Source of the DNA: a virus
IMG/VR virus record: IMGVR_UViG_3300030103_003475
Location: 1,989 to 22,449 of that record
Direction: 5' to 3' (one strand)
Length of the DNA: 20,461 nucleotides
The first letter of the stretch is position 1; each line of letters opens with the position of its first letter. A program made the translations under genes and the position numbers. Positions 423 through 13,012 of the stretch are shown here, piece by piece. The notes beneath the pieces were generated by a model. The model did no database searches. It was not told where the DNA came from and saw only the letters and a program-made list of their open reading frames with translations.

Positions 423-1406
423 ATGGCAGATGCTTGGGGTGAAGGTACATGGGGGCAAGGCTTTTGGGGCCAACAAAGTTCGGTCACAGTATCAGTTACT
501 GGGTTATCGACAACAGCAGCGCTTGGCACAGAGTCAGTTGTTGCTGATAGTTTAGTTACATTAGACTCACTTCAATCTACTTTTACTTTAGGCACAGCAG
601 CAGCAGAACAAGAATCTGTCTTTGATTTAACAGGTGTAACATCTCAATTTAATTTAGGCACTGTAAGTGTTGAAGAAGGAGCAGGAGTTACTCTTGATAG
701 TCTATCCACATCATTTGCTGTAGGCACTGAAAGTGCATCAGGAACAGTTGATGCGGGTTGGGGAAGATCCACATGGGGGTCTTTTGCTTGGAATGAAAAC
801 ATAACACAAGAAGTCAGCGTCACGGGAGTGACTATGGCTACGACTCTAGGTACCACAACTCAAGAAGTTGGAACTGGTGTTATAGTTTCAGTTACCGGTC
901 TTGAGATGACAGGTGCATTGGGCACCACATCACAAACAGGAACAGCCGTAGAAACTCTTGATAGTCTTTCAGTAGGTGTTGCTCTCTCAGGAGCGACGGT
1001 ATCAGGTGAGGGTAGTGTTGCTGTTATAGCACCCTCTGATCAATTAGATTTTGCTATTGGAACTCCTGTAATAGATATTTTCACACAGGTAGATCCAACC
1101 GCAGTTACAATGACTGCAACTCTTGGAACTGCTGTAGCAGAGGCAGATGCTTTAGTCACTCTTGATAGTTTATCTTCATCATTTGCTACAGGAACAGAAA
1201 CAGTTGAAGTGGGAACTGGTGTAATTGTAAGTGTTTCAACAGTTGCAATGAGTTTTGCTACAGGCACGGAAACAGTTGAAGGTAGTGCTTTAGTAAACGT
1301 CACAGGACTTGACTTAACCATAGTCACAGGTAATCCTTTCTCTACACCGTGGGCGAATGTAGTTACAGGAGCAAGTAATACTTGGACAGAGGTAAATGCT
1401 GCGTGA
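423..1406 (+). CDS. Repeat-containing virion protein with Trp-Gly motifs
   Basis: This 327-residue protein begins with a Trp-rich segment (WGEGTWGQGFWG, residues 5-16). It then consists of about twelve short repeats whose marker is a hydrophobic residue followed by Gly-Thr, with Gly at residues 35, 57, 79, 101, 143, 167, 190 (degenerate), 213, 235, 257, 281 and 303. The period is 22-24 residues, broken once by a second Trp motif (WGRSTWGSFAWN, 113-124). Each repeat reads roughly V-T-x-[LV]-x3-x-x-x-GT. There is almost no Cys, Lys or His, so a regular beta structure such as a solenoid or stacked hairpins is likely. Position among fibre genes suggests a tail-fibre shaft or virion decoration protein. 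Its TGA stop overlaps the GTG start of the next gene. The family is not one I can name. Confidence 0.75.
   Translation: MADAWGEGTWGQGFWGQQSSVTVSVTGLSTTAALGTESVVADSLVTLDSLQSTFTLGTAAAEQESVFDLTGVTSQFNLGTVSVEEGAGVTLDSLSTSFAVGTESASGTVDAGWGRSTWGSFAWNENITQEVSVTGVTMATTLGTTTQEVGTGVIVSVTGLEMTGALGTTSQTGTAVETLDSLSVGVALSGATVSGEGSVAVIAPSDQLDFAIGTPVIDIFTQVDPTAVTMTATLGTAVAEADALVTLDSLSSSFATGTETVEVGTGVIVSVSTVAMSFATGTETVEGSALVNVTGLDLTIVTGNPFSTPWANVVTGASNTWTEVNAA
519..1340 (+). repeat. About twelve degenerate 66-bp coding repeats
   Basis: The 22-residue protein repeat is also visible in the DNA. Similar blocks recur, for example around 687-734 and 1155-1200 (ACTCTTGATAGT followed by TCATTTGCT) and around 861-900 and 1202-1240 (GGAACTGGTGT). 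The copies differ from one another, so this is an old in-frame expansion rather than a recent duplication. Long antisense open frames at 644-856 and 1040-1327 are by-products of this composition. Confidence 0.65.
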
Positions 1407-1861
1407 CATTTAAGGTAATAGATAATTTTCTTTCAGATAAAAATTTTGAAAAAATACAGAATACAGTATTATCGAACAAATTTGTTTGGTTTTATTCTGA
1501 TTGTGTGAGTAAACAAAACGATGGTGATTTTCAATTTTCCACTATGTTAGATACTGAAAACGATGAAATAGTAAAATTGTTTAAAGAAAAAATACAAATA
1601 GAAAAGGTGATTAGAGTTAAAATAAATCAAACTCATAGAACAAAAAATCTTTTAATTCATAAACCACATGTTGATCAACATTTTGACAGTAAAGCTATGG
1701 TTCTTTATTTGAATACAAACAACGGATACACTTATTTTGATGACCAAAAAGTGTCCTCAAAAGCCAATAGGGCGATTCTTTTTGATGCTACTGCCTTACA
1801 CGGAGGAACTACTTGCACAGATCAAAAGAGAAGAGTAGTATTGAATATGAATTATATTTAA
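1403..1861 (+). CDS. 2OG-Fe(II) oxygenase-like protein A
   Basis: This 152-residue protein is proposed to use Fe(II), O2 and 2-oxoglutarate to hydroxylate an unknown substrate in the cytoplasm. The C-terminal half carries the double-stranded beta-helix signature: H89-V-D91 as proximal iron ligands, H133 in 'ATALHGG' as the distal ligand, and R143 or R144 as the likely 2-oxoglutarate anchor. I start it at GTG 1403, not TTG 1382. AGAGG at 1388-1392 is well spaced for the GTG, and the product then begins MTFKVIDNFL, matching MDCKVIDNFL of the gene at 12521. The two also share 'LNTNNG.T.FDD' and 'ANR..[IL]FD', so they are paralogues. It overlaps the stop of the repeat-protein gene and stands apart from the two other oxygenase clusters. 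Confidence 0.72.
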   Translation: MTFKVIDNFLSDKNFEKIQNTVLSNKFVWFYSDCVSKQNDGDFQFSTMLDTENDEIVKLFKEKIQIEKVIRVKINQTHRTKNLLIHKPHVDQHFDSKAMVLYLNTNNGYTYFDDQKVSSKANRAILFDATALHGGTTCTDQKRRVVLNMNYI

Positions 1862-1863
1862 TG

Positions 1864-1891
1864 TTGAATTTTAGATGTAAAAAGATATATT
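1864..1891 (+). promoter_or_regulatory. Possible sigma-70-type promoter before the S74 fibre gene
   Basis: In the 46-base gap before the fibre gene, TTGAAT (1864-1869) and TATATT (1886-1891) are 16 bases apart. They are followed by AAGAGG and the ATG at 1908. The region is very A+T-rich, so a chance match is quite possible. Confidence 0.28.
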
Positions 1892-1907
1892 TTTAAGAGG
1901 TTTAAAC

Positions 1908-3011
1908 ATGGCAAGTACATATTCAGATAGACTCAAATTAGAACTCATGGCCACTGGCGCTAATGCCAATACATGGGGTACTAATACCAATAATAATTTA
2001 GAAGTAGTAGATGCTTTTGCAGCAGGATATTTATCAAAATCAGTTGCAGGTTCAGCAAATATTACACTTTCAACAGCTAATGCCTCTGATACAGCAGAAT
2101 CATCAAATAAAGTAATTGAACTTACAGGTGCTTTAACAGGGGATATTGTTGTCTTTATTCCTGCTGTTGAAAATAATTATACTTTTTTTAACAACACTAC
2201 AGGTTCACAAACTTTAACAATCGCAGCAACAGGACATACAGCTAATGGTACTTTGATTACACAAGGCGCACATACCACTGTTTATTGTGATGGCTCATCA
2301 GATTTTAATGTAGAAATTGCAAGTTCAACAGACGCTGCTGCTTTAAACAAAGGAACCTTACCAGATGCAAGATTTCCTGCGACATTGCCCGCAGCTTCTG
2401 GCGCTAACTTAACAAGTTTAAACGCATCAAACTTAGGATCAGGAACTGTTCCTAATGCTCGTTTAGATGCACAACTTCAAGATGTAGCAGGATTAGCTGT
2501 TACTGATGGTGGTATTATTGTCGGTGATGGTGGTAATTTTGTTTTAGAAACAGGAGCTACTGCAAGAACAAGTTTAGGTTTAGGAACATCATCTGATGTT
2601 CAATTTAATGATATGCAAGTAGACTCACTTGGTGTCGCTACTGCAGCATCAGGAACAAGTGGTGAGATTAGAGCCACAAACGACATTACTGCTTTTTTTT
2701 CATCTGATGTCGCATTAAAAGAAAATATTCACAACATATCTTCACCTATGGAAAAAGTACAAAATCTTAATGGTGTGCTTTTTGATTGGAAACAAGAATT
2801 TATTGACGCCAAAGGTGGGGAAGATGGTTATTTTGTTCGTAAAACAGACGTAGGTGTTATAGCTCAAGATGTTGAAAAAGTTTTACCAGAGGTCGTAGGC
2901 ACAAGACCTGACGGAGTTAAAGCCGTTAAATATGATCGTTTATGTGCTTTATTAATCGAATGTGTAAAGGATTTACAAACTCAGGTCAATGATCTTAAGA
3001 AGGGAGAATAA
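1908..3011 (+). CDS. Tail fibre with C-terminal S74 self-cleaving chaperone domain
   Basis: This 367-residue fibre has a conserved N-terminal virion-attachment segment (DRLKLELMATGANANTWG within residues 7-24). A low-complexity Ala, Ser, Thr and Gly beta-rich shaft runs from about 40 to 260. The C-terminal region from about residue 264 matches the peptidase S74 intramolecular chaperone (endosialidase CIMCD type). It contains S266-D267 and K271, the Ser-Lys pair spaced five residues apart as in the characterised family, then 'GVIAQDVEKVLPEVV' (316-330), 'VKYDRL' and a terminal coiled coil (about 346-365). In this family the domain trimerises the fibre and then cuts itself off just before the Ser. 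Here that would leave a mature fibre of about 265 residues. It is followed after 3 bases by the polyglycine adhesin gene, so the pair probably builds the host-binding tip. Confidence 0.88.
   Translation: MASTYSDRLKLELMATGANANTWGTNTNNNLEVVDAFAAGYLSKSVAGSANITLSTANASDTAESSNKVIELTGALTGDIVVFIPAVENNYTFFNNTTGSQTLTIAATGHTANGTLITQGAHTTVYCDGSSDFNVEIASSTDAAALNKGTLPDARFPATLPAASGANLTSLNASNLGSGTVPNARLDAQLQDVAGLAVTDGGIIVGDGGNFVLETGATARTSLGLGTSSDVQFNDMQVDSLGVATAASGTSGEIRATNDITAFFSSDVALKENIHNISSPMEKVQNLNGVLFDWKQEFIDAKGGEDGYFVRKTDVGVIAQDVEKVLPEVVGTRPDGVKAVKYDRLCALLIECVKDLQTQVNDLKKGE
2703..2720 (+). other. Predicted S74 autocleavage site and Ser-Lys dyad
   Basis: Codons 266-271 read S-D-V-A-L-K. By analogy with endosialidase and other S74 fibres, the chain is cut immediately N-terminal to S266 after trimerisation. 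The inference comes from the motif and its spacing only. Confidence 0.7.
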
Positions 3012-3014
3012 GTT

Positions 3015-3959
3015 ATGCCAACACCTTCAGGTCAAATAGGTCTTTCAGACGTAAACGCAGAATTAGGAAACTCTCCCACAGCTCAAATAAATATGGACTC
3101 TGCGCCTGTAAGAGGATTAGCAGAAGTTCCTAGTGGAGCCATATCCATGTCTGACTTGCAAAATAAGTCTAATGTAAAATTTATTGTTGCTTCAGGTGGC
3201 TCAGAAAGCACTGATGGAGATTTTAAAATTCATACTTTTAATAGTAGTGGTACATTCACCGTAAATGATGCAGGTAACTCAGGAGGATCTGACACCGTTG
3301 ACTTCTTAGTAATTGCAGGTGGTGGAGGTGGTGGTCGTGAACCAGATTCAAGAGCAGGTGGTGGAGGTGCAGGTGGTTTTAGACTTGACTATCCAAATCC
3401 CGCTACTGGAGGTTTACCAGTATCAACAGGTGGAATACCTGTCACCATTGGTGGTGGAGGTGGACCCAACAGTCCTGGCAGTTCATCAAATTTTTCTACA
3501 ATAACTTCATCTGGGGGTGGTAGCCAAGGAAGACCAGGCGGATCTGGTGGTGGACAACACACCTTTCAATCTGGTGGAACAGGTAATGCAGGGGGATTTT
3601 CACCTCCTGAGGGAAGACCAGGTGGAACTTTCTCTAACCAAGCAGGTGCAGGTGGTGGTGGAGCAGGCAGTAATGGTCAAAATGGATCAGGTAACACCGC
3701 AGGTGGTGGAGGTTCAGGATCACCTACCAATATAGATGGCACTTTCTCAAGTAGAGCAGGTGGCGGTGGAGGCTCTGGTGGAGGTTCCGAAGGTCCCGCT
3801 AATGATGGTGGTGGAGCAGGTGGTCGTCAAACAGGTGGACCTCGAGCAGGAAGACCAGGTACAGCTAATACCGGTGGCGGAGGTGGAGCAGGACCCTCTA
3901 CTCGAGCTAATGGCACAGGTGGAAGTGGTAAAGTAATTATTAGGTACAAGTTTCAGTAA
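3015..3959 (+). CDS. Glycine-rich tail-fibre adhesin (polyglycine domain)
   Basis: This 314-residue protein has three parts. The N-terminal region (1-55: 'SGQIGLSDVNAELG', 'VRGLAEVPSGAISMSDL') is typical of phage fibre adhesins. A short beta module follows (about 70-100: 'HTFNSSGTFTV' and 'VDFLVIAGG'). A very Gly-rich region then runs from about 101 to 305, made of GGGGG blocks separated by variable loops, and the protein closes with strand 'GKVIIRYKFQ'. Known Gly-rich adhesins (for example phage S16 gp38) form a packed polyglycine-II sandwich whose loops bind the receptor, and this protein probably does the same. 'GRPG' occurs three times (172, 201 and 279), a collagen-like sequence that could be a hydroxylation target. 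AAGGAG lies just ahead of the ATG. Out-of-frame open reading frames inside it are composition artefacts. Confidence 0.82.
   Translation: MPTPSGQIGLSDVNAELGNSPTAQINMDSAPVRGLAEVPSGAISMSDLQNKSNVKFIVASGGSESTDGDFKIHTFNSSGTFTVNDAGNSGGSDTVDFLVIAGGGGGGREPDSRAGGGGAGGFRLDYPNPATGGLPVSTGGIPVTIGGGGGPNSPGSSSNFSTITSSGGGSQGRPGGSGGGQHTFQSGGTGNAGGFSPPEGRPGGTFSNQAGAGGGGAGSNGQNGSGNTAGGGGSGSPTNIDGTFSSRAGGGGGSGGGSEGPANDGGGAGGRQTGGPRAGRPGTANTGGGGGAGPSTRANGTGGSGKVIIRYKFQ
3310..3935 (+). repeat. GGT/GGA-rich low-complexity tract coding for polyglycine
   Basis: Dense GGTGGTGGAGG-type runs encode the adhesin's Gly-rich domain. They stand out from the A+T-rich surroundings. Such tracts recombine and slip easily, which may help the adhesin vary its receptor loops. 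Confidence 0.75.
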
Positions 3960-4441
3960 TGGCACATTTTGCAAAATTAAGTGATGAAAATTTAGTTCTA
4001 CACGTAGAAGTTGTGGATAACTCAGTTTTAGAAGATGAAAATGGTAATGAGCAAGAGTCTTTAGGAATCGCATATTTAAATTCAATACACGGATGGCCTC
4101 ATTGGAAAAAAACCTCTTATAATACAATTAAAGGAAAACATTATGAAGCCGATCATCAAACAGAATCTTCAGATCAATCAAAAGCTTTTAGGAAAAACTT
4201 TGCCTCTATTGGTGGAAAATATGATTCTACAAAAGATGCATTTATACCTGAGCAACCTTTTAATTCTTGGATTCTTGATGAGACTACATGCACATGGATT
4301 CCTCCTATTACTGAGCCAATTACGGAAGAAGAAACAAAAAGAATTTATTGGAATGAGTCAAATCAAAGTTGGGACGCAGAAGACGTTGATGGAACAATTT
4401 TGAGATGGAGCACAGAAACATCTTCATGGAGTGCTGTTTAA
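3959..4441 (+). CDS. Conserved fibre-associated phage protein, function unknown
   Basis: This 160-residue protein starts MAHFAKLSDENLVLHVEVVD and contains 'DENGNEQESLGIAYL', 'WKKTSYN', 'FRKNFASIGGKYDSTKDAFIP' in pieces at 78-97, and 'PFNSW.L...T..W.PP'. From memory this order is typical of a small protein common in marine myo-, sipho- and podoviruses, usually found near tail-fibre genes. It ends with two Trp-containing repeats ('IYWNESNQSW' and 'LRWSTETSSW'), likely beta hairpins. A stretch of about 20 residues at 57-76 looks like a variable insertion. Its ATG overlaps the adhesin's TAA, so the two are translationally coupled. It may be a fibre component, an adhesin chaperone or an assembly factor; the sequence does not decide. 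Confidence 0.7.
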   Translation: MAHFAKLSDENLVLHVEVVDNSVLEDENGNEQESLGIAYLNSIHGWPHWKKTSYNTIKGKHYEADHQTESSDQSKAFRKNFASIGGKYDSTKDAFIPEQPFNSWILDETTCTWIPPITEPITEEETKRIYWNESNQSWDAEDVDGTILRWSTETSSWSAV

Positions 4442-4449
4442 CTTTCTAG

Positions 4450-5010
4450 ATGAAAGATAAAGTAGTCCTATCAGAATCTTTTTACATTAAAGGTTTTATT
4501 TCTAAGTCACTTGATTTAGATAAATTCTATATAAAAAATAATGTCATAAAGAATTATGCTTATGATTCACAACTTACAAAAGATAAATTATACCCCTCTA
4601 AAGATTATGTTAATTTAAGCCAAGATGAAAATGTATTAAGACTAAATCAATATTTTGTTGACTTTTACAAGTTATATCACAAAGAAAATATCGAGATAAT
4701 GCACAACTACGGTATTTTTTTAAATCAAAATCAATCAATAAATTTACATAATCACATTAATGATTACGACCTTACTAACAGTCCAGAGATTTCTGTATTG
4801 TATGTAGTTGATTGCAATGATGATTCTTTAAATGTTGAATTTCAATTTCATAAAAGACTTACAAGAAATTCAAAAAAAATGGTTACTCTAAAACAAAATG
4901 ATTACCTTGTATTTAATTCAAATTTACAACATGGCATATTAGCTAATAAAAATAATAAACCAATTTTACTTTTATCTTTTCAATTTAGAGTGAGATCTGA
5001 TCAAATATAA
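4450..5010 (+). CDS. 2OG-Fe(II) oxygenase-like protein B (HxH, divergent)
   Basis: This 186-residue protein is Asn- and Lys-rich and very A+T-rich (one sampled 60-base line was 25% G+C). The N-terminal half is unrecognised. The C-terminal half has the layout of the phage 2OG-Fe(II) oxygenase family 5 fold. It contains 'NLHNHINDYD' (H100 and H102, with D105 as an alternative ligand), hydrophobic strand 'ISVLYVVD', a late His in 'NLQHGI' (H161) and 'LLSFQFRVR' with R180 as a possible 2-oxoglutarate anchor. The metal site is less clear than in its neighbours, so activity is uncertain. It opens the first oxygenase cluster, has no obvious ribosome-binding site, and its TAA directly abuts the ATG of the next gene, suggesting coupled translation. 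Confidence 0.55.
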   Translation: MKDKVVLSESFYIKGFISKSLDLDKFYIKNNVIKNYAYDSQLTKDKLYPSKDYVNLSQDENVLRLNQYFVDFYKLYHKENIEIMHNYGIFLNQNQSINLHNHINDYDLTNSPEISVLYVVDCNDDSLNVEFQFHKRLTRNSKKMVTLKQNDYLVFNSNLQHGILANKNNKPILLLSFQFRVRSDQI

Positions 5011-5613
5011 ATGACCTTAGATAATTACTGGTATTACTTTCAAGATGCATTACCAAGTCGTTTTTGTGATGACATTATTGCTTTTGGTAATGAGCAAGTT
5101 GCTCAAACAGCAAGTGTTGAGGGCTTTCAAGGTAATGTAGATAATCAAAACGATGTATCAAAACTTTATAAAACAAGAAACTCTTCAATAGTTTGGATGA
5201 ATGAATTATGGATATGGAGAGAAATAGAGCCTTATCTAAGAGAAGCTAATAAAGCGGCAGGTTGGAATTATGATATTGTCTCTCCTGAAAGTTTTCAATT
5301 TACAAAGTACACAGAAAATCAACATTATAGTTGGCATCAAGATGCTTTTAATAAACCTGACAAAGAAGGATTAATACGTAAAATTTCTTTAACTCTTTCA
5401 TTAGAAGACGGTGACAAATATGAAGGTGGAGACTTTGAATTTGATTTAAGAAATGACAGTGAAAGTAAACCTGTCATGATGAAATGTGCAGAGGCTAGAA
5501 AAAAAGGTACATTAATATTCTTTCCCTCTTATGTTTGGCACAGAGTTACCCCTGTAACATCAGGAATAAGATATTCTTTAGTTATATGGAACAGAGGTTT
5601 ACCTTATAGATAG
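5011..5613 (+). CDS. 2OG-Fe(II) oxygenase C, PKHD/prolyl-hydroxylase type
   Basis: This 200-residue protein has the most canonical oxygenase signature in the window: 'YSWHQDAF' with H109 and D111 as iron ligands, core strands 'KISLTLSL' and 'YEGGDFEF', 'GTLIFFPSYVWHRV' with distal H177, and 'GIRYSLVIW' with R187 as the 2-oxoglutarate anchor. This arrangement matches the P4Hc/PKHD-type hydroxylases (PiuC-like), which hydroxylate protein side chains in characterised relatives. Length is normal for a single-domain enzyme. The substrate is unknown; virion proteins encoded on the same transcript are plausible. It starts on the base after the previous stop and is followed by a gene with its own GGAG site. 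Confidence 0.88.
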   Translation: MTLDNYWYYFQDALPSRFCDDIIAFGNEQVAQTASVEGFQGNVDNQNDVSKLYKTRNSSIVWMNELWIWREIEPYLREANKAAGWNYDIVSPESFQFTKYTENQHYSWHQDAFNKPDKEGLIRKISLTLSLEDGDKYEGGDFEFDLRNDSESKPVMMKCAEARKKGTLIFFPSYVWHRVTPVTSGIRYSLVIWNRGLPYR

Positions 5614-5616
5614 GAG
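5613..5616 (+). promoter_or_regulatory. Ribosome-binding site for oxygenase D
   Basis: GGAG sits 5 bases before the ATG at 5622 and supports that start. Confidence 0.5.
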
Positions 5617-5621
5617 AAGTA

Positions 5622-6269
5622 ATGAAAAAACAATCAACAGGTAATCATTTTCAAGATAATCATTATGTAGTTATAAGAGAGGCAATCAGTTCTGATTTAG
5701 CTAGTTTTGTTTATAATTACTTTCAAAATAAACGTGCAGTAGCACAAAAGCTTTTTGAGGAAAAATACATTTCTCCTTATGAGCAGTCGTGGGGACATTG
5801 GAATGATCGACAAGTGCCTGGGACTTATTCTCATTATGCTGATGTAGCAATGGAAACTTTACTCCTACGTGTCATGCCTGTTATGTCGTACATTACAGAA
5901 TTAGAGTTAGTTCCGTGTTATTCCTATGCTAGAATATATAAATATGGTGATGTCTTACACAGACATAAAGATAGACCTGAATGTGAAATCTCAACTACTA
6001 TAAATTTGGGTGGAGATAATTGGCCTATATATTTAGATCCTTCTCAAGGAGAAGGCAAAGAGGGTATTAAGGTAGATTTAAATCCTGGTGACATGTTAGT
6101 TTACAAAGGTGAAAAACTAGAACATTGGAGAGAGCCTTTTCAAGGATATGATTGTGGTCAAGTTTTTTTACACTACAATGACAAAAAAGGACCTTTTCAA
6201 GAAAAAAATAAATTTGATCATCGACCTATATTAGGATTACCAAGTGATTTAAAAAAATTTAATGCTTAA
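5622..6269 (+). CDS. 2OG-Fe(II) oxygenase-like protein D
   Basis: This is a 215-residue protein. 'YARIYKYGDVLHRHKDR' gives H115-K-D117 as iron ligands, followed by 'CEISTTINLGGDNWPIYLD', 'VDLNPGDMLVYKGEKLEHWRE' in pieces (distal H168), and 'GQVFLHYND'. From memory this is a distinct, well-conserved subfamily in marine phages and bacteria, with the Asp-Asn-Trp-Pro insertion and the 'LNPGDM' strand. The basic residue anchoring 2-oxoglutarate is not obvious: R170, next to the distal His, is one candidate. Substrate unknown. Its last 8 bases overlap the next oxygenase gene, which starts without a clear ribosome-binding site, so the two are probably coupled. Confidence 0.8.
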   Translation: MKKQSTGNHFQDNHYVVIREAISSDLASFVYNYFQNKRAVAQKLFEEKYISPYEQSWGHWNDRQVPGTYSHYADVAMETLLLRVMPVMSYITELELVPCYSYARIYKYGDVLHRHKDRPECEISTTINLGGDNWPIYLDPSQGEGKEGIKVDLNPGDMLVYKGEKLEHWREPFQGYDCGQVFLHYNDKKGPFQEKNKFDHRPILGLPSDLKKFNA

Positions 6270-6852
6270 AGAAGAATTATTTGACATAAAGAGTTTTATT
6301 GGTGGATGGTACATAGACAAATTATTATGTGATGCACTTATCGATTTTCATGAAGCAAATAAAGATAAAGTTGTGCAAGGCACTGTTGGAAAAACAATCG
6401 TAGACAAGAGCACTAAAGACAGTCTAGATCTTCGTTGTCGTCCAAACGGACATCCCGTGATAAAAGAATATCAACAACAATTACAAAAATGCCTTGATTT
6501 ATATTTAGAAAGATATGAGTCAGCTAACAATGTTAATTATTTTGCTGTTCATGAAAATATTGCAATACAAAAATATAAGATTAATGGTGGATTTAAAAAA
6601 TGGCATTGTGAAAATCAAGGTTATTCTGGAAACATTCAAAGATATTTAGTTTTTATGACATATTTAAATGATGTTAAAAACGGAGGCACAGAATTTAAAT
6701 ATCAAAAAATTAAAACTGAAGCAGTGAAAGGACTTACGCTCATTTGGCCAGCTTTTTTTACACATACTCATAGGGGCGTAATATCAAACGAAGATGAAAA
6801 ATACATCATTACGGGATGGTTCAGTTTTAATGAAGGAGAACAAAATGATTAA
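6262..6852 (+). CDS. 2OG-Fe(II) oxygenase E, P4H-like with HxE motif
   Basis: This is a 196-residue protein. 'FKKWHCENQG' supplies H115-C-E117, an HxE variant of the usual HxD pair. 'RYLVFMTYLND' and 'GGTEFKYQ' form the core strands, 'GLTLIWPAFFTHTHRG' gives the distal His (H170 most likely), and K180 in 'EKYIITGWF' fits the Lys that anchors 2-oxoglutarate in collagen-type prolyl 4-hydroxylases. The 'NGGTEF' segment and the Lys anchor place it closer to P4H enzymes than to PKHD enzymes. HxE still binds iron in some family members, so it is probably active. It overlaps both neighbours by 8 bases, and the gene just downstream is a glycosyltransferase. Confidence 0.82.
   Translation: MLKEELFDIKSFIGGWYIDKLLCDALIDFHEANKDKVVQGTVGKTIVDKSTKDSLDLRCRPNGHPVIKEYQQQLQKCLDLYLERYESANNVNYFAVHENIAIQKYKINGGFKKWHCENQGYSGNIQRYLVFMTYLNDVKNGGTEFKYQKIKTEAVKGLTLIWPAFFTHTHRGVISNEDEKYIITGWFSFNEGEQND
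6835..6838 (+). promoter_or_regulatory. Ribosome-binding site deciding the glycosyltransferase start
   Basis: GGAG lies 6 bases before the ATG at 6845. This favours 6845 over the in-frame ATG at 6794, which would overlap the upstream gene by 59 bases. Confidence 0.6.
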
Positions 6853-7648
6853 GCCGGAAGAATTAAAAGATAAAAATTTTAAAATATTTTTAGGAATGCC
6901 CATGTATGGTGGCATGGTCTCAGAAGCGACAGTTCATGGATTACTAGAATTACAACAATGGAGTATGGCAAAAAAGGTTGGACTACGATTTCAATCCATG
7001 GGTAATGAAAGTTTAATAACTAGAGCTCGTAATACAATTGTTTCCATGATGATGGATCAAACTGATTTTGTAGCAACGCATTTATTATTTATTGATGCTG
7101 ATATTGGTTTTCAGTGGCAAAATATTGAAAGATTATTATGTGCAGACAAAGACATAGTTTGTGGTATTTACCCTAGAAAACATATCTATTTAGAAAAAGT
7201 AAAAAAGATATTAGAAGAAAATCCTAATGCAACTCCTGACGAAATAGAGGCAAAAGCTTTAGGTTATAATGTTAACTTTGACAATCCAGAATTAATAAAA
7301 GGAGAGAACGGTTTTTTTAAAGTTAATGAAGCAGCTACAGGTATGATGCTAGTTAAAAGAGAAGTGTTTCGCACGATGATGAAAAAATTTCCAGAGCGTA
7401 AGTATGAGTCTGATCAAATTGTAAATGGAGGGTATTACAGATCTGATAATTGTTATGACTTATTTGCTGTTGGTCCTTATCAGACATTAGATAAAAAAAG
7501 ATATTTGTCTGAAGATTACTACTTCTCAAGACTATGGACTGAAGAGTGTGGTGGAGAGATATGGGCAGATTTATCCATGCCTTTAACACATTTTGGTAAC
7601 AGAGCATTTAAAGGTCACGTTGGGACTTTAGTGGCGGAAAAAAAATAA
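6845..7648 (+). CDS. GT-A glycosyltransferase, phage type
   Basis: This 267-residue enzyme is predicted to transfer a sugar from a nucleotide-sugar donor. It opens with 'FKIFLGMPMYGG' (12-23), the first strand of a GT-A fold. 'LITRARNTIVSMMM' (57-70) follows, then the metal/nucleotide-binding DxD motif in 'LLFIDADIGF' (D84 and D86), 'DIVCGIYPRK', an acidic 'LSEDYYFSRLW' (E223, D224) in the usual acceptor-base region, and 'LTHFGNRAFKGH' near the end. This order resembles family-2-like or Anp1-like glycosyltransferases seen in many marine phages. Donor and acceptor are unknown. It sits inside the oxygenase cluster, overlapping oxygenase E by 8 bases and oxygenase F by 1, which suggests it acts on the same targets, possibly by glycosylating hydroxylated residues. 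Confidence 0.82.
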   Translation: MIKPEELKDKNFKIFLGMPMYGGMVSEATVHGLLELQQWSMAKKVGLRFQSMGNESLITRARNTIVSMMMDQTDFVATHLLFIDADIGFQWQNIERLLCADKDIVCGIYPRKHIYLEKVKKILEENPNATPDEIEAKALGYNVNFDNPELIKGENGFFKVNEAATGMMLVKREVFRTMMKKFPERKYESDQIVNGGYYRSDNCYDLFAVGPYQTLDKKRYLSEDYYFSRLWTEECGGEIWADLSMPLTHFGNRAFKGHVGTLVAEKK

Positions 7649-8286
7649 TGGAAATAAAATCATTAGATAATGACAACGGTTACATATTAGATGATGTACC
7701 AGTTCATATTTTTGAACAATTAAAATTACATATACAAGATGTAAACTTACCTGAAGCTAATAAAGATTTAGCAGGTAACATATCTAAAGAGTTTCATTTA
7801 CCAAAAGGGCCAGAAATTCTTCAATCATATATTCTTGAATTAAAAGATATTTATACTCAAAGATTTAAAATAATGGATCATTATACTATTCTTACAGATT
7901 CATTACCTTTTTGTTTAAATAGCACATGGGTAAATTTTCAAAAAAAATATGAATTTAATCCAGTGCATGTTCATTCAGGACTTTTTAGTTTTGTTATATG
8001 GATACAAATACCTTACACAAAAGAAGAAGAATTAAATTCTGAACACTGTAAAGCAAGTAATACGAAAGCTGCAGGTGCCTTTTCTTTTGTATATCCTGAT
8101 ATACAAGGAAACATACAATCTGATATTATATGTGCTGATAAAAATTATGAAGGAAGAATAGCTTTTTTTCCTGCGAGGATGGCACATTGTGTTTATCCTT
8201 TTTACACATCAGATCAAGAGAGAATAACTGTATCAGGAAATGTTTTTTTAGAAGTAAATAATGAATATAAAAATACTACAACATAA
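7648..8286 (+). CDS. 2OG-Fe(II) oxygenase-like protein F (HxH type)
   Basis: This 212-residue protein matches the phage 2OG-Fe(II) oxygenase family 5 pattern. 'WVNFQKKYEFNPVHVHSG' holds H107 and H109, followed by the hydrophobic strand 'FSFVIWIQIP', an insertion, 'GAFSFVYPD', 'GRIAFFPARMAHCVYPF' with distal H180, and 'ERITVSGNVFLEV' with R192 as the 2-oxoglutarate anchor. The second ligand position is His rather than Asp, as I recall is usual for this family. It shares the closing 'xITxxGN' strand with the gene at 11495. The TAATG junction with the glycosyltransferase and the 26-base overlap with the next gene argue for one tightly coupled operon. Confidence 0.8.
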   Translation: MEIKSLDNDNGYILDDVPVHIFEQLKLHIQDVNLPEANKDLAGNISKEFHLPKGPEILQSYILELKDIYTQRFKIMDHYTILTDSLPFCLNSTWVNFQKKYEFNPVHVHSGLFSFVIWIQIPYTKEEELNSEHCKASNTKAAGAFSFVYPDIQGNIQSDIICADKNYEGRIAFFPARMAHCVYPFYTSDQERITVSGNVFLEVNNEYKNTTT

Positions 8287-8812
8287 TGAATTTTCTTTAT
8301 TTGCTGTATACGTTTTAGAGGACTTTTTAAGTGAACAAGAAAATTTGTTAGTCACTGAAGAAGTAAAAAAATGTATACAGGAGGATAATTTACTTACTAA
8401 TAAAACTAACGTTCATGCCGAAATGACATCTTGGCAATCAGCTTTAAAAAGGGAAAACCTAGAATTTTTCTTTAAAAAGGTAGCTGACATGGTGATGATT
8501 ATTTATAAGATGAGGGAACCCAATCCTAACCGAGCACAAGAGTTAACTTTTTTTGACTCGTGGGCAATGAAACACAATAAAAATGACTACACAAGAAACC
8601 ATATTCACGGCTCAACAATGTTTTCTGGTAGCTACAATTGTTTAGTTCCAAGCTCTGATCAATTTATGTTTTTTCCAGATTTTACAGATAATGTTCAAAT
8701 GAAGTCAAATCAACTAATATTCTTTCATGGACTTGCAAAACATAGTGTAAATAAGAACTCTTCACATAATCCACGATATTCTCTTGCTTTTAATATGGAA
8801 ATTGATTCATAG
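8261..8812 (+). CDS. 2OG-Fe(II) oxygenase-like protein G (HxH type)
   Basis: This is a 183-residue protein. 'SWAMKHNKNDYTRNHIHG' carries H114 and H116, followed by 'STMFSGSYNCLVPSSDQFMFF' in pieces (118-138), 'NQLIFFHGLAKHSV' with distal H161 (or H156), and 'NPRYSLAFNMEI' with R172 as the 2-oxoglutarate anchor. The His-x-His-Gly plus 'FSG.Y' pattern is typical of the family 5 phage oxygenases found in cyanophages and pelagiphages. The start at 8261 gives a 26-base overlap with oxygenase F; an ATG at 8286 is out of frame and stops soon after. It closes the first cluster, 19 bases before the hub gene. Confidence 0.8.
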   Translation: MNIKILQHNEFSLFAVYVLEDFLSEQENLLVTEEVKKCIQEDNLLTNKTNVHAEMTSWQSALKRENLEFFFKKVADMVMIIYKMREPNPNRAQELTFFDSWAMKHNKNDYTRNHIHGSTMFSGSYNCLVPSSDQFMFFPDFTDNVQMKSNQLIFFHGLAKHSVNKNSSHNPRYSLAFNMEIDS

Positions 8813-8831
8813 TTAGAATATATTATGCCCT

Positions 8832-10658
8832 ATGCCCTTAGTTAACTTTAGACCAGCACCAGGCATCAATAAAGAAGTGACCGACTACACAGGCGAAGGC
8901 AAGTGGACGGACGGTGATAACGTACGCTTTTTTCAAGGATTGCCACAAAAAATCAAAGGATGGGAGAAGTTTATCTCCACAACCTTAGTAGGTGTTGCAC
9001 GTGATCAACATGCTTGGGTAGCTTTAGATGGCACGAGGTATAATGCTATTGGGACAGATAGAAAACTGTATGTCGTAGAGGAAGGCCTAGCCTATGACAT
9101 TACACCTATAAGAGAAACACAAGCCTTAACTAATCCATTTACTACAAATGCAACAACATCCGTTGTTGTGACAGATACCTCTCATGGTGCTCAAAAAGGT
9201 GATTTTGTAACTTTTGATTCTTTCTCTGCAATTGATGGTCTTGACATGAATAAAGAGTTTGAGATTACCTCTATTGCTAATAGTGATGCTTATGTTGTAA
9301 CAACAACCGCTGCTGCGTCAGGATCTACTTCTGGTGGTGGTGGATCAGGTAACGCAAAGTATCAAATATCAATAGGTCCTGAGCTTTCTACATCAGCTTT
9401 TGGTTGGGGCACAGACACTTGGGGTGCGGGAGGTTGGGGCTCACCTTCGACAACATCAAATGTGACATTAGAGGCAAGACAATGGTCACTTGATAATTTT
9501 GGTGAAGATTTGATAGCCACAGTTTTAAATGGTGGAGCTTTTCAATGGGATACTTCAGTGGGCGTAAGCACTAGAGCTGCTGCTATATCTGGAGCTCCTA
9601 CAGCATCAAGATTAAGTTTAGTTTCAACCCCTGACCGACATTTAGTTTTTATGGGAACAGAAAATACGATTGGCTCATCAAACTCTCAAGATGATTTGCT
9701 TATTAGATTCTCTGATCAAGAAGATATTACTACTTATCAACCAACAGCAGAAAACACTGCTGGTTCTCTTCGTATTGCTGATGGATCACGAATCGTGGCA
9801 GCAGAGAGATCAAGAGGTCAAATACTCGTGTGGACAGACACCTCATTACATTCCATGCAATTTATCGGACCACCTTTTACGTTTGGATTACGTCAACTAG
9901 GTCAAAACTGTGGAATCATTGGTAGTCATGCAGGTATTGATTTAAATGGTGTTGCTTATTGGATGTCTCAAGATTCTTTCTTCTTGTTTGATGGTACAGT
10001 TAAAAAACTACCATGCACAGTAGAACAATTTGTATTTAATAATATTAACATTACAGGATCAGAAAACGCCTTTGCAGGGCATAATGGTGAGTTTAATGAA
10101 ATAATGTGGTTTTATCCTAGAACAGGATCAGATCAAATAAATGCTATTGTTGCTTATAATTATTTAGAACAAACATGGTGGACTGGAACATTATCAAGAA
10201 CTACATGGATTGATAGAGAAGTTTATGAAAACCCAGTTGGAACCGAATATCTATCTACTACCATAGCTAATAATGAAACAATCTCAGGATTAACAGATGG
10301 TGCAACACAATTGTATTTACATGAAACAGGCAATGATGCAGATGGAGAGGCCATGATTGCTTTTGTTAAATCAGGCTCTGTTGAAATAGGTGAGGGCAAC
10401 GATTTATTATTTGTTTCCAAGTTAATTCCAGATGTGCAGAATCAAGAGGGAACATTAAATGCAAAGCTAGAGTTTAAAAATTATCCAAACACTAGCACAA
10501 GCACTATTAAAACAGCAACCTTTACTGATGCCACCGAGTTTGTTAGTTTAAGAGGACGAGGAAGAGAATTCACAGTCAATGTTGTTTCAAATACCACTGG
10601 CACAGCATGGAGATTAGGAACACAGCGTTTTGATATACAACCTGATGGTAGAAGATAA
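8832..10658 (+). CDS. Tail hub / DNA-stabilisation-like virion protein
   Basis: This is a 608-residue protein. The N-terminus ('MPLVNFRPAPGINKEVTDY', 'GKWTDGDNVRFFQGLPQKI', 'GWEKF') is characteristic of a large structural protein of marine podovirus-like phages that I relate to the P22 gp10-type tail accessory or packaged-DNA stabilisation proteins. An inserted small domain spans about 105-165, followed by a Gly-Ser linker and a Trp-Gly motif (192-203, WGTDTWGAGGWG). The centre holds propeller-like repeats ('HLVFMGTEN', 'QILVWTDTSLHSMQFIGPPFTFG', split here at 20 or fewer residues, and 'GVAYWMSQDSFFLFDGTVKKLP'), and a beta-rich C-terminus follows. Such proteins close the portal after packaging or link portal and tail. 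G+C is higher than in the flanking oxygenase genes in the lines I counted. Exact role is inferred. Confidence 0.75.
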   Translation: MPLVNFRPAPGINKEVTDYTGEGKWTDGDNVRFFQGLPQKIKGWEKFISTTLVGVARDQHAWVALDGTRYNAIGTDRKLYVVEEGLAYDITPIRETQALTNPFTTNATTSVVVTDTSHGAQKGDFVTFDSFSAIDGLDMNKEFEITSIANSDAYVVTTTAAASGSTSGGGGSGNAKYQISIGPELSTSAFGWGTDTWGAGGWGSPSTTSNVTLEARQWSLDNFGEDLIATVLNGGAFQWDTSVGVSTRAAAISGAPTASRLSLVSTPDRHLVFMGTENTIGSSNSQDDLLIRFSDQEDITTYQPTAENTAGSLRIADGSRIVAAERSRGQILVWTDTSLHSMQFIGPPFTFGLRQLGQNCGIIGSHAGIDLNGVAYWMSQDSFFLFDGTVKKLPCTVEQFVFNNINITGSENAFAGHNGEFNEIMWFYPRTGSDQINAIVAYNYLEQTWWTGTLSRTTWIDREVYENPVGTEYLSTTIANNETISGLTDGATQLYLHETGNDADGEAMIAFVKSGSVEIGEGNDLLFVSKLIPDVQNQEGTLNAKLEFKNYPNTSTSTIKTATFTDATEFVSLRGRGREFTVNVVSNTTGTAWRLGTQRFDIQPDGRR

Positions 10659-10825
10659 TGGCTAAATTAGTATTACAAAGGTTCCCAGATCCTAGAGATG
10701 AATATCAAAGAGAGCAACAAGCTGAACTTATTAGACAACTAGAGGAATTAGTGCAACAATTAAACACTCAATATACACAAGATACTCAAGAGGAATCCAC
10801 AAGAAGAACGTGGTTTTTTAAATAA
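10658..10825 (+). CDS. Small coiled-coil virion-module protein (55 aa)
   Basis: The ATG at 10658 overlaps the hub gene's TAA, and the TAA at 10823-10825 directly precedes the next ATG, so this 55-residue gene fits exactly between two structural genes. It begins MAKLVLQRFPDPRDEYQ, continues with a Glu/Gln/Leu-rich helix (about 17-45, 'LIRQLEELVQQLN') able to form a coiled coil, and ends 'EESTRRTWFFK'. From memory, similar proteins of about 55-60 residues follow the hub gene in many marine podovirus-like phages. The function is unknown; a small virion or assembly component is likely. Its position and perfect packing are stronger evidence than its sequence. Confidence 0.75.
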   Translation: MAKLVLQRFPDPRDEYQREQQAELIRQLEELVQQLNTQYTQDTQEESTRRTWFFK

Positions 10826-11182
10826 ATGGCTGACGTTTTTAAAAGATTTATTGCAAATTTGACAACTACAGATTTAACAACTGTTTTTGAAGTGCCTACT
10901 GCAAACGTAGCGTCAACACCACCAACACCAGTTTCTACATTTATAGTGCAAACTATAAATACACATAATTATGACGGATCAAGTGCGGTAACTGTTAATT
11001 TTGACCACAATAATGGAAGTGCTGATTTTCAAATATTTCAAGTAGATGTATCAGCATCTGATACGAATACAATAAGCACAAGTATGGTCTATCAAGAGGG
11101 AGATAAAATGAAGGTACAGGCTAACGCTGCCTCAAGGGCAATAATTGAGGTATCTTTATTAGAGGTAAAACAGCAACAATAA
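10826..11182 (+). CDS. Small beta-rich virion protein
   Basis: This 118-residue protein begins MADVFKRFIANLTTTDLTTVF, followed by a Thr-, Val- and Asp-rich beta-strand pattern ('STFIVQTINTHNYDG', 'VTVNFDH', 'FQIFQVDV') and the closing 'VYQEGDKMKVQANAASRAIIEVSLLEV'-type segment (89-113). This ending is, in my memory, widespread in small phage structural proteins encoded next to hub genes. A head-decoration, neck or fibre-adaptor role is possible. It starts on the base after the 55-residue gene and overlaps the following gene by one base. Confidence 0.65.
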   Translation: MADVFKRFIANLTTTDLTTVFEVPTANVASTPPTPVSTFIVQTINTHNYDGSSAVTVNFDHNNGSADFQIFQVDVSASDTNTISTSMVYQEGDKMKVQANAASRAIIEVSLLEVKQQQ

Positions 11183-11505
11183 TGTCTCCTTTTCAACTGT
11201 TACAAGTTTGGAGAAATAAACCTTTTAAAAAAACAAACTATGAAAATATCAAAGCATTCTATGATGATTATAAATACGTAGAAATGAAACCTAATTCACA
11301 GATTAGTTTGACAGAGGGACTGTTTCATATCATTTTACCTCACCCTGGAGAATGGGTGAAACAAAATTTCAAATTAGAAAGATATATAACTTTATGTAAT
11401 GAAACTAATTCATTCTTATATTTTACTTTAAAGCAGTCATTACTTTTTGACGATGAGCAAGAATACAAACTGCACGTAAAAAATGGTGTGAACCTTGCAA
11501 ATTGA
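11182..11505 (+). CDS. Unrecognised 107-residue phage protein
   Basis: I do not recognise this protein. It starts MSPFQLLQVWRNKPFKKTNY, is rich in aromatic and charged residues, and has no signal peptide, membrane segment or HxD/HxH...H oxygenase motif. The middle ('SLTEGLFHIILPHPGEW', about 42-58) has beta-strand character. It is coupled to the upstream virion gene by a TAATG junction and overlaps the next oxygenase gene by 11 bases, so it opens the second accessory cluster. It might be an oxygenase partner, a virion adaptor or an unrelated accessory protein; nothing in the sequence decides. Confidence 0.6.
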   Translation: MSPFQLLQVWRNKPFKKTNYENIKAFYDDYKYVEMKPNSQISLTEGLFHIILPHPGEWVKQNFKLERYITLCNETNSFLYFTLKQSLLFDDEQEYKLHVKNGVNLAN

Positions 11506-12034
11506 CTTATTTTCAATACCTATTTGGATAGGTAATATTGATACATCAAAAATTATTCTTGATACTAAAGAATTAAAACCGACTTTCGGATCTGAATTAA
11601 ATACAACATTTGATGATGGGGAAGGCAGTAAAGTCACACAAGATAGTATTGATTATTTAAACTCAGTAATTATTGGCCAGTTGAATAATTTTTTTAAAAG
11701 AAATTATGTGATTGACATTACTAATATTTGGGAAAATCATTATAATCAAGATGATTTTCAAGAAAATCATATACATGCTAATTCTGATCTTTCTTTTATA
11801 ATTTATAAGAAAATTAAAGAAGCTAGGACACAATTTGTAAATCCATCCGCAAAACTTTTAGATGCATTTTATTCAAGCTGTATCATAAAAAAAAATATAT
11901 TAGGTCAAGAATTTTTTGTTCCAGAGTGTAGAGAAAACCAAATTGTAATTTTTCCTAGCTATTTAGAACACTTTGTGAGAAAAACAAATGATGCTATAAC
12001 AATAGCAGGTAATTTAAATATTACATTTGAATGA
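11495..12034 (+). CDS. 2OG oxygenase-like protein H lacking the usual Arg
   Basis: This is a 179-residue protein. The TTG start is chosen because the product then begins 'MQIDLFSIPIWIGNI', a typical opening for phage 2OG oxygenases of this type ('LF..P[IV]W'). 'FQENHIHANSDLSFIIY' provides H92 and H94 (HxH type), and 'NQIVIFPSYLEHFV' provides the distal H159. The last strand reads 'NDAITIAGNLNI', whereas oxygenase F has 'QERITVSGNVFL'. The Arg that should anchor 2-oxoglutarate is therefore replaced by Ala167. It may use a different basic residue (K163 or R162), a different cosubstrate, or be inactive. It overlaps the next gene by 4 bases (ATGA). Confidence 0.72.
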   Translation: MQIDLFSIPIWIGNIDTSKIILDTKELKPTFGSELNTTFDDGEGSKVTQDSIDYLNSVIIGQLNNFFKRNYVIDITNIWENHYNQDDFQENHIHANSDLSFIIYKKIKEARTQFVNPSAKLLDAFYSSCIIKKNILGQEFFVPECRENQIVIFPSYLEHFVRKTNDAITIAGNLNITFE

Positions 12035-12531
12035 GATTCATAGAAGATAAATTAATTTTTATAAGTAAAATTAGAAATTATGCAGATAATAATAAAAAAA
12101 TACTCGCATGCATAGATGGATTAAACGATAAAGGTTTATCTTCTACTAATGAACAAATAACAAAAACTGATTGGGACAGTGTAAACTCAAAGAAAGATTA
12201 TTTTTTTCACATTGATTGGGATGTAGACAAACATTTGGAAAAACAATGTGCTATCTTAGGAGCTAATGAAGCTGAGATAGATAAGGTATGGTATCAACAA
12301 TATAGAACTAATTCATCTCATGGGTGGCATACACACGCAGGCGCACATTTTAGCAATGTATACTTTGTTGAATGTAAGAAAGGACAACAAACAGAATTTA
12401 AAAATTTTGATATTGAAGTAGAAGAAGGAGATTTAATTAGTTTTCCAGCATTTTTACCTCACAGGTCAAAAGAAATTATTGATAGTAGAAAAACAGTAAT
12501 AGCTTTTAATACTCAAATACATGGATTGTAA
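12031..12531 (+). CDS. 2OG-Fe(II) oxygenase-like protein I (HxH type)
   Basis: This is a 166-residue protein. 'HGWHTHAGAHFSNVYFVE' gives H100 and H102, 'GDLISFPAFLPHRS' gives the distal H144, and 'SRKTVIAFN' gives R153 or K154 as the 2-oxoglutarate anchor. The short interval between strands and lack of extensions make it a minimal single-domain member. The N-terminal 80 residues are mostly helical with no recognised motif. It overlaps the neighbouring oxygenase genes by 4 and 11 bases. Substrate unknown. Confidence 0.76.
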   Translation: MRFIEDKLIFISKIRNYADNNKKILACIDGLNDKGLSSTNEQITKTDWDSVNSKKDYFFHIDWDVDKHLEKQCAILGANEAEIDKVWYQQYRTNSSHGWHTHAGAHFSNVYFVECKKGQQTEFKNFDIEVEEGDLISFPAFLPHRSKEIIDSRKTVIAFNTQIHGL

Positions 12532-13012
12532 AGTCATAGATAATTTTCTTCCACAAGATATTTTTAACAATATTCAAGAATTGTTAATTAGTGATAAGTT
12601 TGGGTGGTTTTATTGCAATGCAGTGGGAAACCCCTTAGATGATGAAGATGATTATTATATTCATCATTTTTTTGAAGATGGTAAAATTCATAGTCTATAC
12701 TTTGAAAAAGTAATGATCCCTATTTTGTGCAGATTATCTTTTTCGACTAATAATTTAGATAGAGCAAGAGCAAATATGTATACGAAAAAAGAAGAGAGAT
12801 TTATTCATGATTTACATAATGATTCAGATAATAAACACGTTGTAGGTTTATTTTCCTTAAATACAAATAATGGATTTACAATGTTTGATGATGGAAGAAG
12901 GTTTAAATCCACAGCAAATAGAATGCTTATATTTGACGGATCTCAAAGACATTGTAGTGTCACACAGACTGATACGAATATAAGATACAATATCAACATT
13001 AACTTCGTATAG
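12521..13012 (+). CDS. 2OG-Fe(II) oxygenase-like protein J, paralogue of protein A
   Basis: This is a 163-residue protein. 'FIHDLHNDSDNKHVVG' gives H99-N-D101 as iron ligands, 'LIFDGSQRHCSV' gives distal H144, and 'NIRYNINI' gives R155 as the 2-oxoglutarate anchor. It resembles the protein at 1403 along its length: 'KVIDNFL' at residue 4, 'KFGWFY' against 'KFVWFY', 'LNTNNGFTMFDD' against 'LNTNNGYTYFDD', and 'ANRMLIFD' against 'ANRAILFD'. DNA similarity is visible too, for example ATAGATAATTTTCTT near both starts. The pair therefore arose by duplication, or by separate acquisition of two close relatives. It ends the second oxygenase cluster, just before a 43-base gap. Confidence 0.8.
   Translation: MDCKVIDNFLPQDIFNNIQELLISDKFGWFYCNAVGNPLDDEDDYYIHHFFEDGKIHSLYFEKVMIPILCRLSFSTNNLDRARANMYTKKEERFIHDLHNDSDNKHVVGLFSLNTNNGFTMFDDGRRFKSTANRMLIFDGSQRHCSVTQTDTNIRYNININFV

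Follow-up and report, generated by a model that had tools for sequence, protein, structure and literature searches.

What do ten oxygenase-like genes do among the virion genes of a single phage? The stretch of viral DNA analyzed here (20,461 nucleotides, bases 1989-22449 of the 22.4 kb IMG/VR virus record IMGVR_UViG_3300030103_003475, a metagenomic contig; hereafter the window) encodes ten 2-oxoglutarate (2OG)-Fe(II) oxygenase-like proteins, which we letter A to J in gene order, interleaved with virion genes within 11.6 kb. A first-pass annotation made from the letters of the sequence had read this placement as pointing to modification of virion proteins or of host surface molecules. Comparison with related loci backs that reading: C and D behave as one unit, with a subtype that tracks the type of the tail-tip genes, and C/D subtypes co-switch with the tail-tip genes, in some cases without being linked to them. 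We give a probability of roughly one half to the proposal that C and D hydroxylate a tail-tip adhesin and that the other oxygenase positions are slots for exchangeable surface-tailoring enzymes.

The comparison set was built around the P22 gp10-like protein of the window, which retrieved 367 relatives in a scan of IMG/VR; the best 80 were kept and, together with the window, make up 81 loci anchored on the gp10-like gene, in which oxygenase orthogroups were defined at 45% identity. Four tip types follow the fiber gene in these loci: a glycine-rich type with its partner p160 (gly/p160, the type found in the window), OG10/11, APC (which carries a tail-assembly-chaperone domain) and OG61. The subtypes of C and D sort by these types. 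C12 is confined to the OG10/11 tip (24/26 loci), C19 to gly/p160 (12/14) and C28 to the APC tip (11/13), and D9 is found in 25 of the 26 OG10/11 loci and in no others. C is not missing from the OG61 type but is joined to D as one protein of 374-389 amino acids (L009, L011, L014 and L033); the same D-C fusion occurs in four genome contigs and in phrog_3531, where D spans 63-174 and C 186-361.

The gp10 tree shows at least 14 switches of tip type. Across phylogenetically independent pairs, C12 and D9 accompany the OG10/11 tip in approximately 7-8 of 8 cases and never change in the opposite direction (median p of 0.016 for C12). C19 moves with the tip in 5 of 6 such pairs, and p107, a small gene located across gp10 from the tip, does so in 4-5 of 6; neither ever moves in the opposite direction, and both tests fall short of 0.05. 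Three loci (L053, L059 and L060) have C19 downstream of gp10 with p160 still present. Neighbor concordance is complete from C to D (352/352) and reaches 0.80 from tip to C, but is low elsewhere, at 0.16 from D to the next gene, 0.13 from the glycosyltransferase-like gene to the next and 0.10 from gp10 to the next. Among the other oxygenase subtypes, F5, I13, G18 and J37 are largely or wholly independent of tip type, and E25, J30, G38 and H39 depend on it to some degree. As a separate observation, L046 and L047 carry a divergent C/D pair (OG114/OG115) that is inverted beside a p160 tip and is possibly a recent replacement.

All ten open reading frames (ORFs) are present where the first-pass annotation had placed them, on the + strand, and each combines a proximal His motif with a distal His. 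The region reads as follows in window coordinates, with P4H for prolyl 4-hydroxylase and DSBH for double-stranded beta-helix.

1403..1861, +: A, 2OG oxygenase, P4H-like, phrog_274; HVD at 89, H133, R anchor; GTG start
1908..3011, +: tail fiber with C-terminal endosialidase-type chaperone (Peptidase_S74); PF13884 8.7e-14, tail-fiber PHROGs; in 57/81 loci
3015..3959, +: glycine-rich tail-tip protein (proposed adhesin), gly/p160 type; PF21722 6.7e-12, phrog_2295
3959..4441, +: p160, partner of the glycine-rich tail-tip type; phrog_7759
4450..5010, +: B, DSBH protein; HNH at 100, H161, without 2OG anchor; phrog_81 1.6e-7, predicted fold
5011..5613, +: C, 2OG oxygenase, PKHD/PiuC-like; HQD at 109, H177, R; PF13640 3.8e-16
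5622..6269, +: D, P4H-like DSBH protein, phrog_2954 (labeled "ferrochelatase"); HKD at 115, H168; predicted fold
6262..6852, +: E, 2OG oxygenase; HCE at 115, H168; PF13640 8.2e-8, phrog_61 4e-36
6845..7648, +: glycosyltransferase-like gene, DxD motif; phrog_1574, weak match to glycosyltransferase phrog_34859 (4.5e-5); in 78/81 loci
7648..8286, +: F, DSBH protein, PF13759 type; HVH at 107, H180, R; PF13759 1.9e-9
8261..8812, +: G, DSBH protein, PF13759 type; HIH at 114, H161, R; PF13759 8.3e-8
8832..10658, +: P22 gp10-like stabilization protein; phrog_3287 6e-86
10826..11182, +: p118, small conserved gene; in 71/81 loci
11182..11505, +: p107, small gene; co-occurs with the gly/p160 tip type though unlinked
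11495..12034, +: H, DSBH protein, PF13759 type; HIH at 92, H159, no basic anchor; PF13759 4.7e-10; TTG start
12031..12531, +: I, DSBH protein, PF13759 type; HTH at 100, H144, K; PF13759 2.6e-6, phrog_81 1e-20
12521..13012, +: J, 2OG oxygenase, P4H-like, phrog_274; HND at 99, H144, R; phrog_274 8e-37; 33% identical to A

The oxygenase ORFs are mostly tightly packed, with overlaps at D/E, F/G, H/I and I/J. The glycosyltransferase-like ORF opens at 6794, inside E, and an alignment of 21 relatives places its conserved start at M18 (6845). The "hub" gene of the earlier description, at 8832, is the P22 gp10-like DNA-stabilization/head-completion gene rather than a baseplate hub. A run of N at about positions 1981-1992 of L002, just 5' of the window start, means that this record was scaffolded across a gap, which adjoins the first base of the window.

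The assignment to the 2OG-oxygenase-like group holds for all ten proteins, each of which falls in the DSBH superfamily by profile, solved homolog or predicted fold. Curated Pfam cut-offs were passed by C and E (PF13640) and by F, G, H and I (PF13759), with A just under the cut-off for PF13640 (E 2.4e-5) and no significant Pfam match for B and D; the curated cut-off of TIGR02466 (62.5 bits) was missed, the top window score being 29.6 bits. PHROG families cover the set, with A and J in phrog_274 (3.5e-41 for A), C and E in phrog_61, B, F, G, H and I in phrog_81 and D in phrog_2954, at E-values running from 1.6e-7 (B) to 3e-50 (D). Against the PDB, the A/J profile matched solved prolyl 4- and 3-hydroxylases (3.6e-5 and 1.2e-4), C matched the PKHD hydroxylase 3dkq (4e-6), and the H family profile matched the solved structures 3bvc/2rg4 (1e-16), though H as a single sequence had no phmmer match there. 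The AlphaFold model of D (pLDDT 94.4) has the P. putida P4H 4iw3 as its top PDB match in Foldseek (E 1.6e-9); that of B (pLDDT 88.7) has 3bvc, a PF13759 structure (E 4e-7), although the B profile had no match in the PDB. Profile-profile comparison joins A/J with the PF13759 group (E 1e-9), B with the same group (4e-8) and, more weakly, D with A/J (3e-5). Profile drift as an inflator of the oxygenase count is ruled out, since the same iterated search, applied to ten neighboring non-oxygenase genes of the window as controls, had zero overlap with the oxygenase set. The proteins are also as diverse as first described: A and J are 33% identical and no other pair aligns well. With this as the sole close pair, tandem duplication is ruled out as the origin of the ten.

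How unusual is such a set? The first-pass annotation called it an extreme density, and in this it was mistaken. Oxygenases were counted from 5 kb upstream to 2.6 kb downstream of the gp10-like gene, and among the 35 loci that span this interval the count ranges from 3 to 9 (median 5), with the window, at 9, at the top of the range; whole loci with 10-11 are found in L024, L074-L076 and L085, so that relatives routinely carry as many. The window thus lies at the rich end of its lineage's normal distribution. This count is if anything low, because the oxygenase- or JmjC-like families OG40, OG54, OG75 and OG113 escaped the profiles derived from the window. OG40 (L042:14226-14879) is a further 2OG-like family (DUF6445/PF13640) whose phrog_1644 is labeled "minor coat protein".

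The gp10-like protein of the window is 43% identical to that of HTVC023P, and the two phages have the virion module and 2OG cluster in common; on these shared features the window phage is an HTVC023P-like marine podovirus of the pelagiphage lineage. From the cultured relatives we infer a SAR11 host, the record itself being a metagenomic contig. 2OG genes lie directly upstream of the gp10-like gene in HTVC023P and 023Pt_psg01. HTVC023P carries four or more oxygenase-fold genes a short way upstream of this gene and, in addition, a B-type gp64; a second sample, taken around HTVC023P itself, is poorer, averaging 1.6 oxygenases over the upstream 5 kb. Clusters of this kind occur in cultured HTVC023P, 023Pt_psg01, HTVC033P and HTVC008M and in the cyanophages S-SM1 and S-CREM1; published counts stand at 24 for S-SCSM1 (PMC9602691) and ten for S-CREM1 (PMC9964418).

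The ten are not equivalent in their active sites. A, C, D, E and J have the canonical HxD/E...H iron triad, whereas B, F, G, H and I have HxH...H in its place, the PF13759/TIGR02466 type, with the second His occupying the Asp position in the profile alignment. Across the aligned PF13759-type proteins (F, G, H, I and their relatives) the three His and one Trp are all invariant, and the HxH...H motif is also present in the solved structures 3bvc and 2rg4. A basic 2OG anchor had been noted for most of the proteins; R or K follows the distal His in A, C, E, F, G, I and J and is absent in B and H. D has no basic anchor at the usual site, but R104, R118 and R170 are invariant in its family, as is HKD...H across 53 aligned homologs. 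The B family is eroding, with H, H, H kept in 11 of 29 aligned members; in most of the others, including gp64 of HTVC023P, the distal His has become Tyr and the proximal pair is gone. From the motif classes and the degeneracy of B, the ten are more accurately counted as five oxygenases with the canonical triad, four relatives of the HxH type and one protein from a family in decay. HTVC023P gp64 (L004:9542-10045) and its counterpart in 023Pt_psg01 (L006:10820-11323) are B-family DSBH proteins without any iron-binding His, encoded directly upstream of, or one gene from, an active-type C gene, and are probable pseudo-enzymes.

Across the 81 loci these genes fill positions in a common frame, in the order fiber (S74), tail-tip genes, slots, glycosyltransferase-like gene, slots, gp10-like gene, p118, slots and p83. 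The slots hold 62 oxygenase orthogroups, the commonest floating one being F (42 of 81 loci), and they also house carbamoyltransferases (PF16861 2.9e-44), a sulfotransferase (PF13469 7e-11), methyltransferases (PF13578 7e-13), JmjC/cupin proteins and a weak GT9-like gene. NodU-type carbamoyltransferases occupy oxygenase slots in L035, L045 and L054 (OG90), in L074/L075 (OG123) and in L062 and others (OG45). A DUF6065/phrog_7084 family of about 240 amino acids (OG24, OG35 and OG72; L056:7919-8632, L082:2667-3395) often comes after D. L024 has an additional F-type gene between p118 and p107, and its D gene is 100% identical to that of the window at 93% identity of the gp10-like protein, which indicates that near-identical cassettes move between phages.

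These observations lend themselves to a model in which C and D would act late in infection on the tail-tip adhesin soon after its synthesis, or on its chaperone complex, hydroxylating side chains (proline or similar) with the help of Fe(II), 2-oxoglutarate and O2, and would thereby mature the adhesin or set its receptor specificity. The floating enzymes would hydroxylate further virion surface groups or derivatize their hydroxyls, the target possibly being a glycan added by the conserved glycosyltransferase-like protein, and the B type would have partly decayed into a non-catalytic scaffold. The enzyme set would diversify through cassette swapping under host-range or decoy selection. We advance only tentatively the fuller version of this model, combinatorial virion modification, in which a type-matched C/D pair acting on adhesins and exchangeable oxygenases and carbamoyl-, sulfo-, methyl- and glycosyltransferases together write a chemical host-range or decoy code through cassette swapping.

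Several points weigh against virion modification. We infer both the substrate of C and D and their activity on the virion, and the tip genes are called putative adhesins from their position, a glycine-rich domain or a tail-assembly-chaperone domain. The association of C/D with the tip is largely one between neighbors and could reflect block exchange, only a few cases are unlinked, and the tests for C19 and p107 are not below 0.05. For the HxH proteins (B, F, G, H and I), 2OG may not be the cosubstrate. A glycosyltransferase identity, from a DxD motif and a weak PHROG match, is itself a weak assignment; the protein had no Pfam support, and its profile found nothing useful in the PDB. Finally, C/D-tip co-switching is equally expected if the enzyme modifies the receptor of the adhesin.

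This last point belongs to the main rival, host-receptor modification, which fits the data nearly as well as virion modification even though we hold it to be unlikely. Here the enzymes would act on an outer-membrane glycan or receptor protein of the host surface, masking or altering the receptor of the adhesin and sparing progeny from debris and infected cells. The carbamoyl-, sulfo-, methyl- and weak GT9-like genes of the slots are typical of glycan tailoring, as this would have it; on the other hand, the oxygenases are placed inside the virion gene block, and C and D resemble protein (PKHD/prolyl) hydroxylases, though fold does not fix substrate.

Tip, C and D could also simply hitchhike as one recombination block, with oxygenase substrates that are separate or not in common. 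They are indeed adjacent in most loci, and whole blocks do move, as in the cassette common to the window and L024 with its flanking gp10 at 93%. However, C19 and p107 track tip type even when apart from it, equally close neighbors are shuffled (as after D), and C and D are fused in several genomes, which together make hitchhiking improbable.

The published view is that such genes are auxiliary metabolic genes for host iron, heme, nitrogen or 2OG metabolism, with a "ferrochelatase" as partner. It has been proposed for cyanophages (PMC3037559) and for HTVC023P-type pelagiphages (PMC9599517) and is used in PMC11561400; phrog_2954, the family of D, serves as the ferrochelatase in PMC9599517 and PMC11561400. 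This partner is instead an oxygenase-fold protein with an invariant HxD...H. Ferrochelatase Pfam models matched neither D nor its 52 aligned relatives, nor the phage proteins annotated as ferrochelatase in HTVC023P, HTVC033P, HTVC008M and S-SM1, and the ferrochelatase fold is absent from the 50 best PDB matches of the D model. D as a ferrochelatase partner is thus ruled out by Pfam, profile, P4H-like fold and the invariant HKD...H. The D family is found in 152 phage records and in cellular genomes too. A metabolic role, which predicts neither tip matching nor position in the virion module and whose main partner gene is misnamed, is therefore the less likely one, and we would give it little credence.

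A second label fares no better. S-SM1 SSM1_054, annotated "denV" (L247:7249-7737), is a J-type 2OG oxygenase by its match to the J profile (7e-33) and its HxD...H...R, and the pyrimidine-dimer glycosylase domain PF03013 had no match in A, J or this protein, whereas the true pyrimidine-dimer glycosylase of S-CREM1 has PF03013 at 4e-13 and is not matched by the oxygenase profiles. T4 endonuclease V/DenV is ruled out for A and J by this lack of PF03013 and by their prolyl-hydroxylase profile matches. The labels "ferrochelatase" for phrog_2954 and "DNA endonuclease V" for phrog_274 thus appear to be wrong. They hide further oxygenases, so that published statements on phage heme metabolism and DNA repair built on them need review; tallies of cyanophage denV genes, for instance in the PMC3037559 table, may also be affected. 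Action of some of the enzymes on nucleic acid, as AlkB/TET-like base or tRNA modification, is very improbable: AlkB is among the fold matches of D and Tet-like enzymes are among the weak profile matches of A/J, and DNA repair is proposed for cyanophage homologs in work cited in PMC9146016 and PMC3037559, but prolyl hydroxylases match better, the genes sit among virion genes and there are no replication genes in the window.

Among solved structures, the closest folds and profiles for D, A/J and C are bacterial, algal and viral prolyl 4-hydroxylases (4iw3, 5hv0 and PBCV-1 vCPH 5c5t) and PKHD-type PiuC, although identity in the fold matches is only 10-15%. 3bvc and 2rg4 have the HxH...H...R pattern and the fold of F, G and I; H has HxH...H without the Arg. 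The nearest functional analogy is the Mimivirus-type collagen lysyl hydroxylase/glucosyltransferase, a viral hydroxylase and glycosyltransferase acting on fiber-like proteins; the putative hydroxylases and the glycosyltransferase-like protein are encoded by separate genes here.

That marine phages carry many 2OG oxygenases is already known, and oxygenase clustering in the HTVC023P-like lineage was reported in 2022, with eight non-orthologous 2OG families that are often close together with one or two "ferrochelatases" (PMC9599517). Those pelagiphage genes are of the same lineage and region as those of the window and are the same genes; PMC9599517 reads them as host-metabolic, whereas in our analysis the supposed ferrochelatase has an oxygenase fold and lies next to C or is fused with it, and the C/D pair is linked to tip type. 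The multi-2OG sets of the cyanophages S-SCSM1, S-CREM1 and S-SM1 consist, as in the window, of many divergent small PF13640/PF13759/TIGR02466-type proteins, but are scattered over myovirus genomes of 150-230 kb. In S-SM1 and HTVC008M the cluster lies near fiber or virion genes and includes members labeled "ferrochelatase" and "denV". The cyanophage multi-2OG literature examined describes no link of oxygenase subtype to fiber type, and in the open-access literature searched we found no papers on prolyl hydroxylation of phage tail fibers and none proposing virion modification. Apparently new to that literature are the tip-matched C/D unit, the sharing of slots with enzymes for other kinds of tailoring, the distinction of an HxH and a degenerate class, and the relabeling of two PHROGs.

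Of the genes in marine phages that lack an explanation, 2OG oxygenases are some of the most frequent, and they are usually tallied as host-metabolic. If C/D and the floating slots do modify adhesins or receptors, a large share of this gene class would belong to host recognition rather than metabolism, and one route by which phages vary their host range would become testable on existing isolates.

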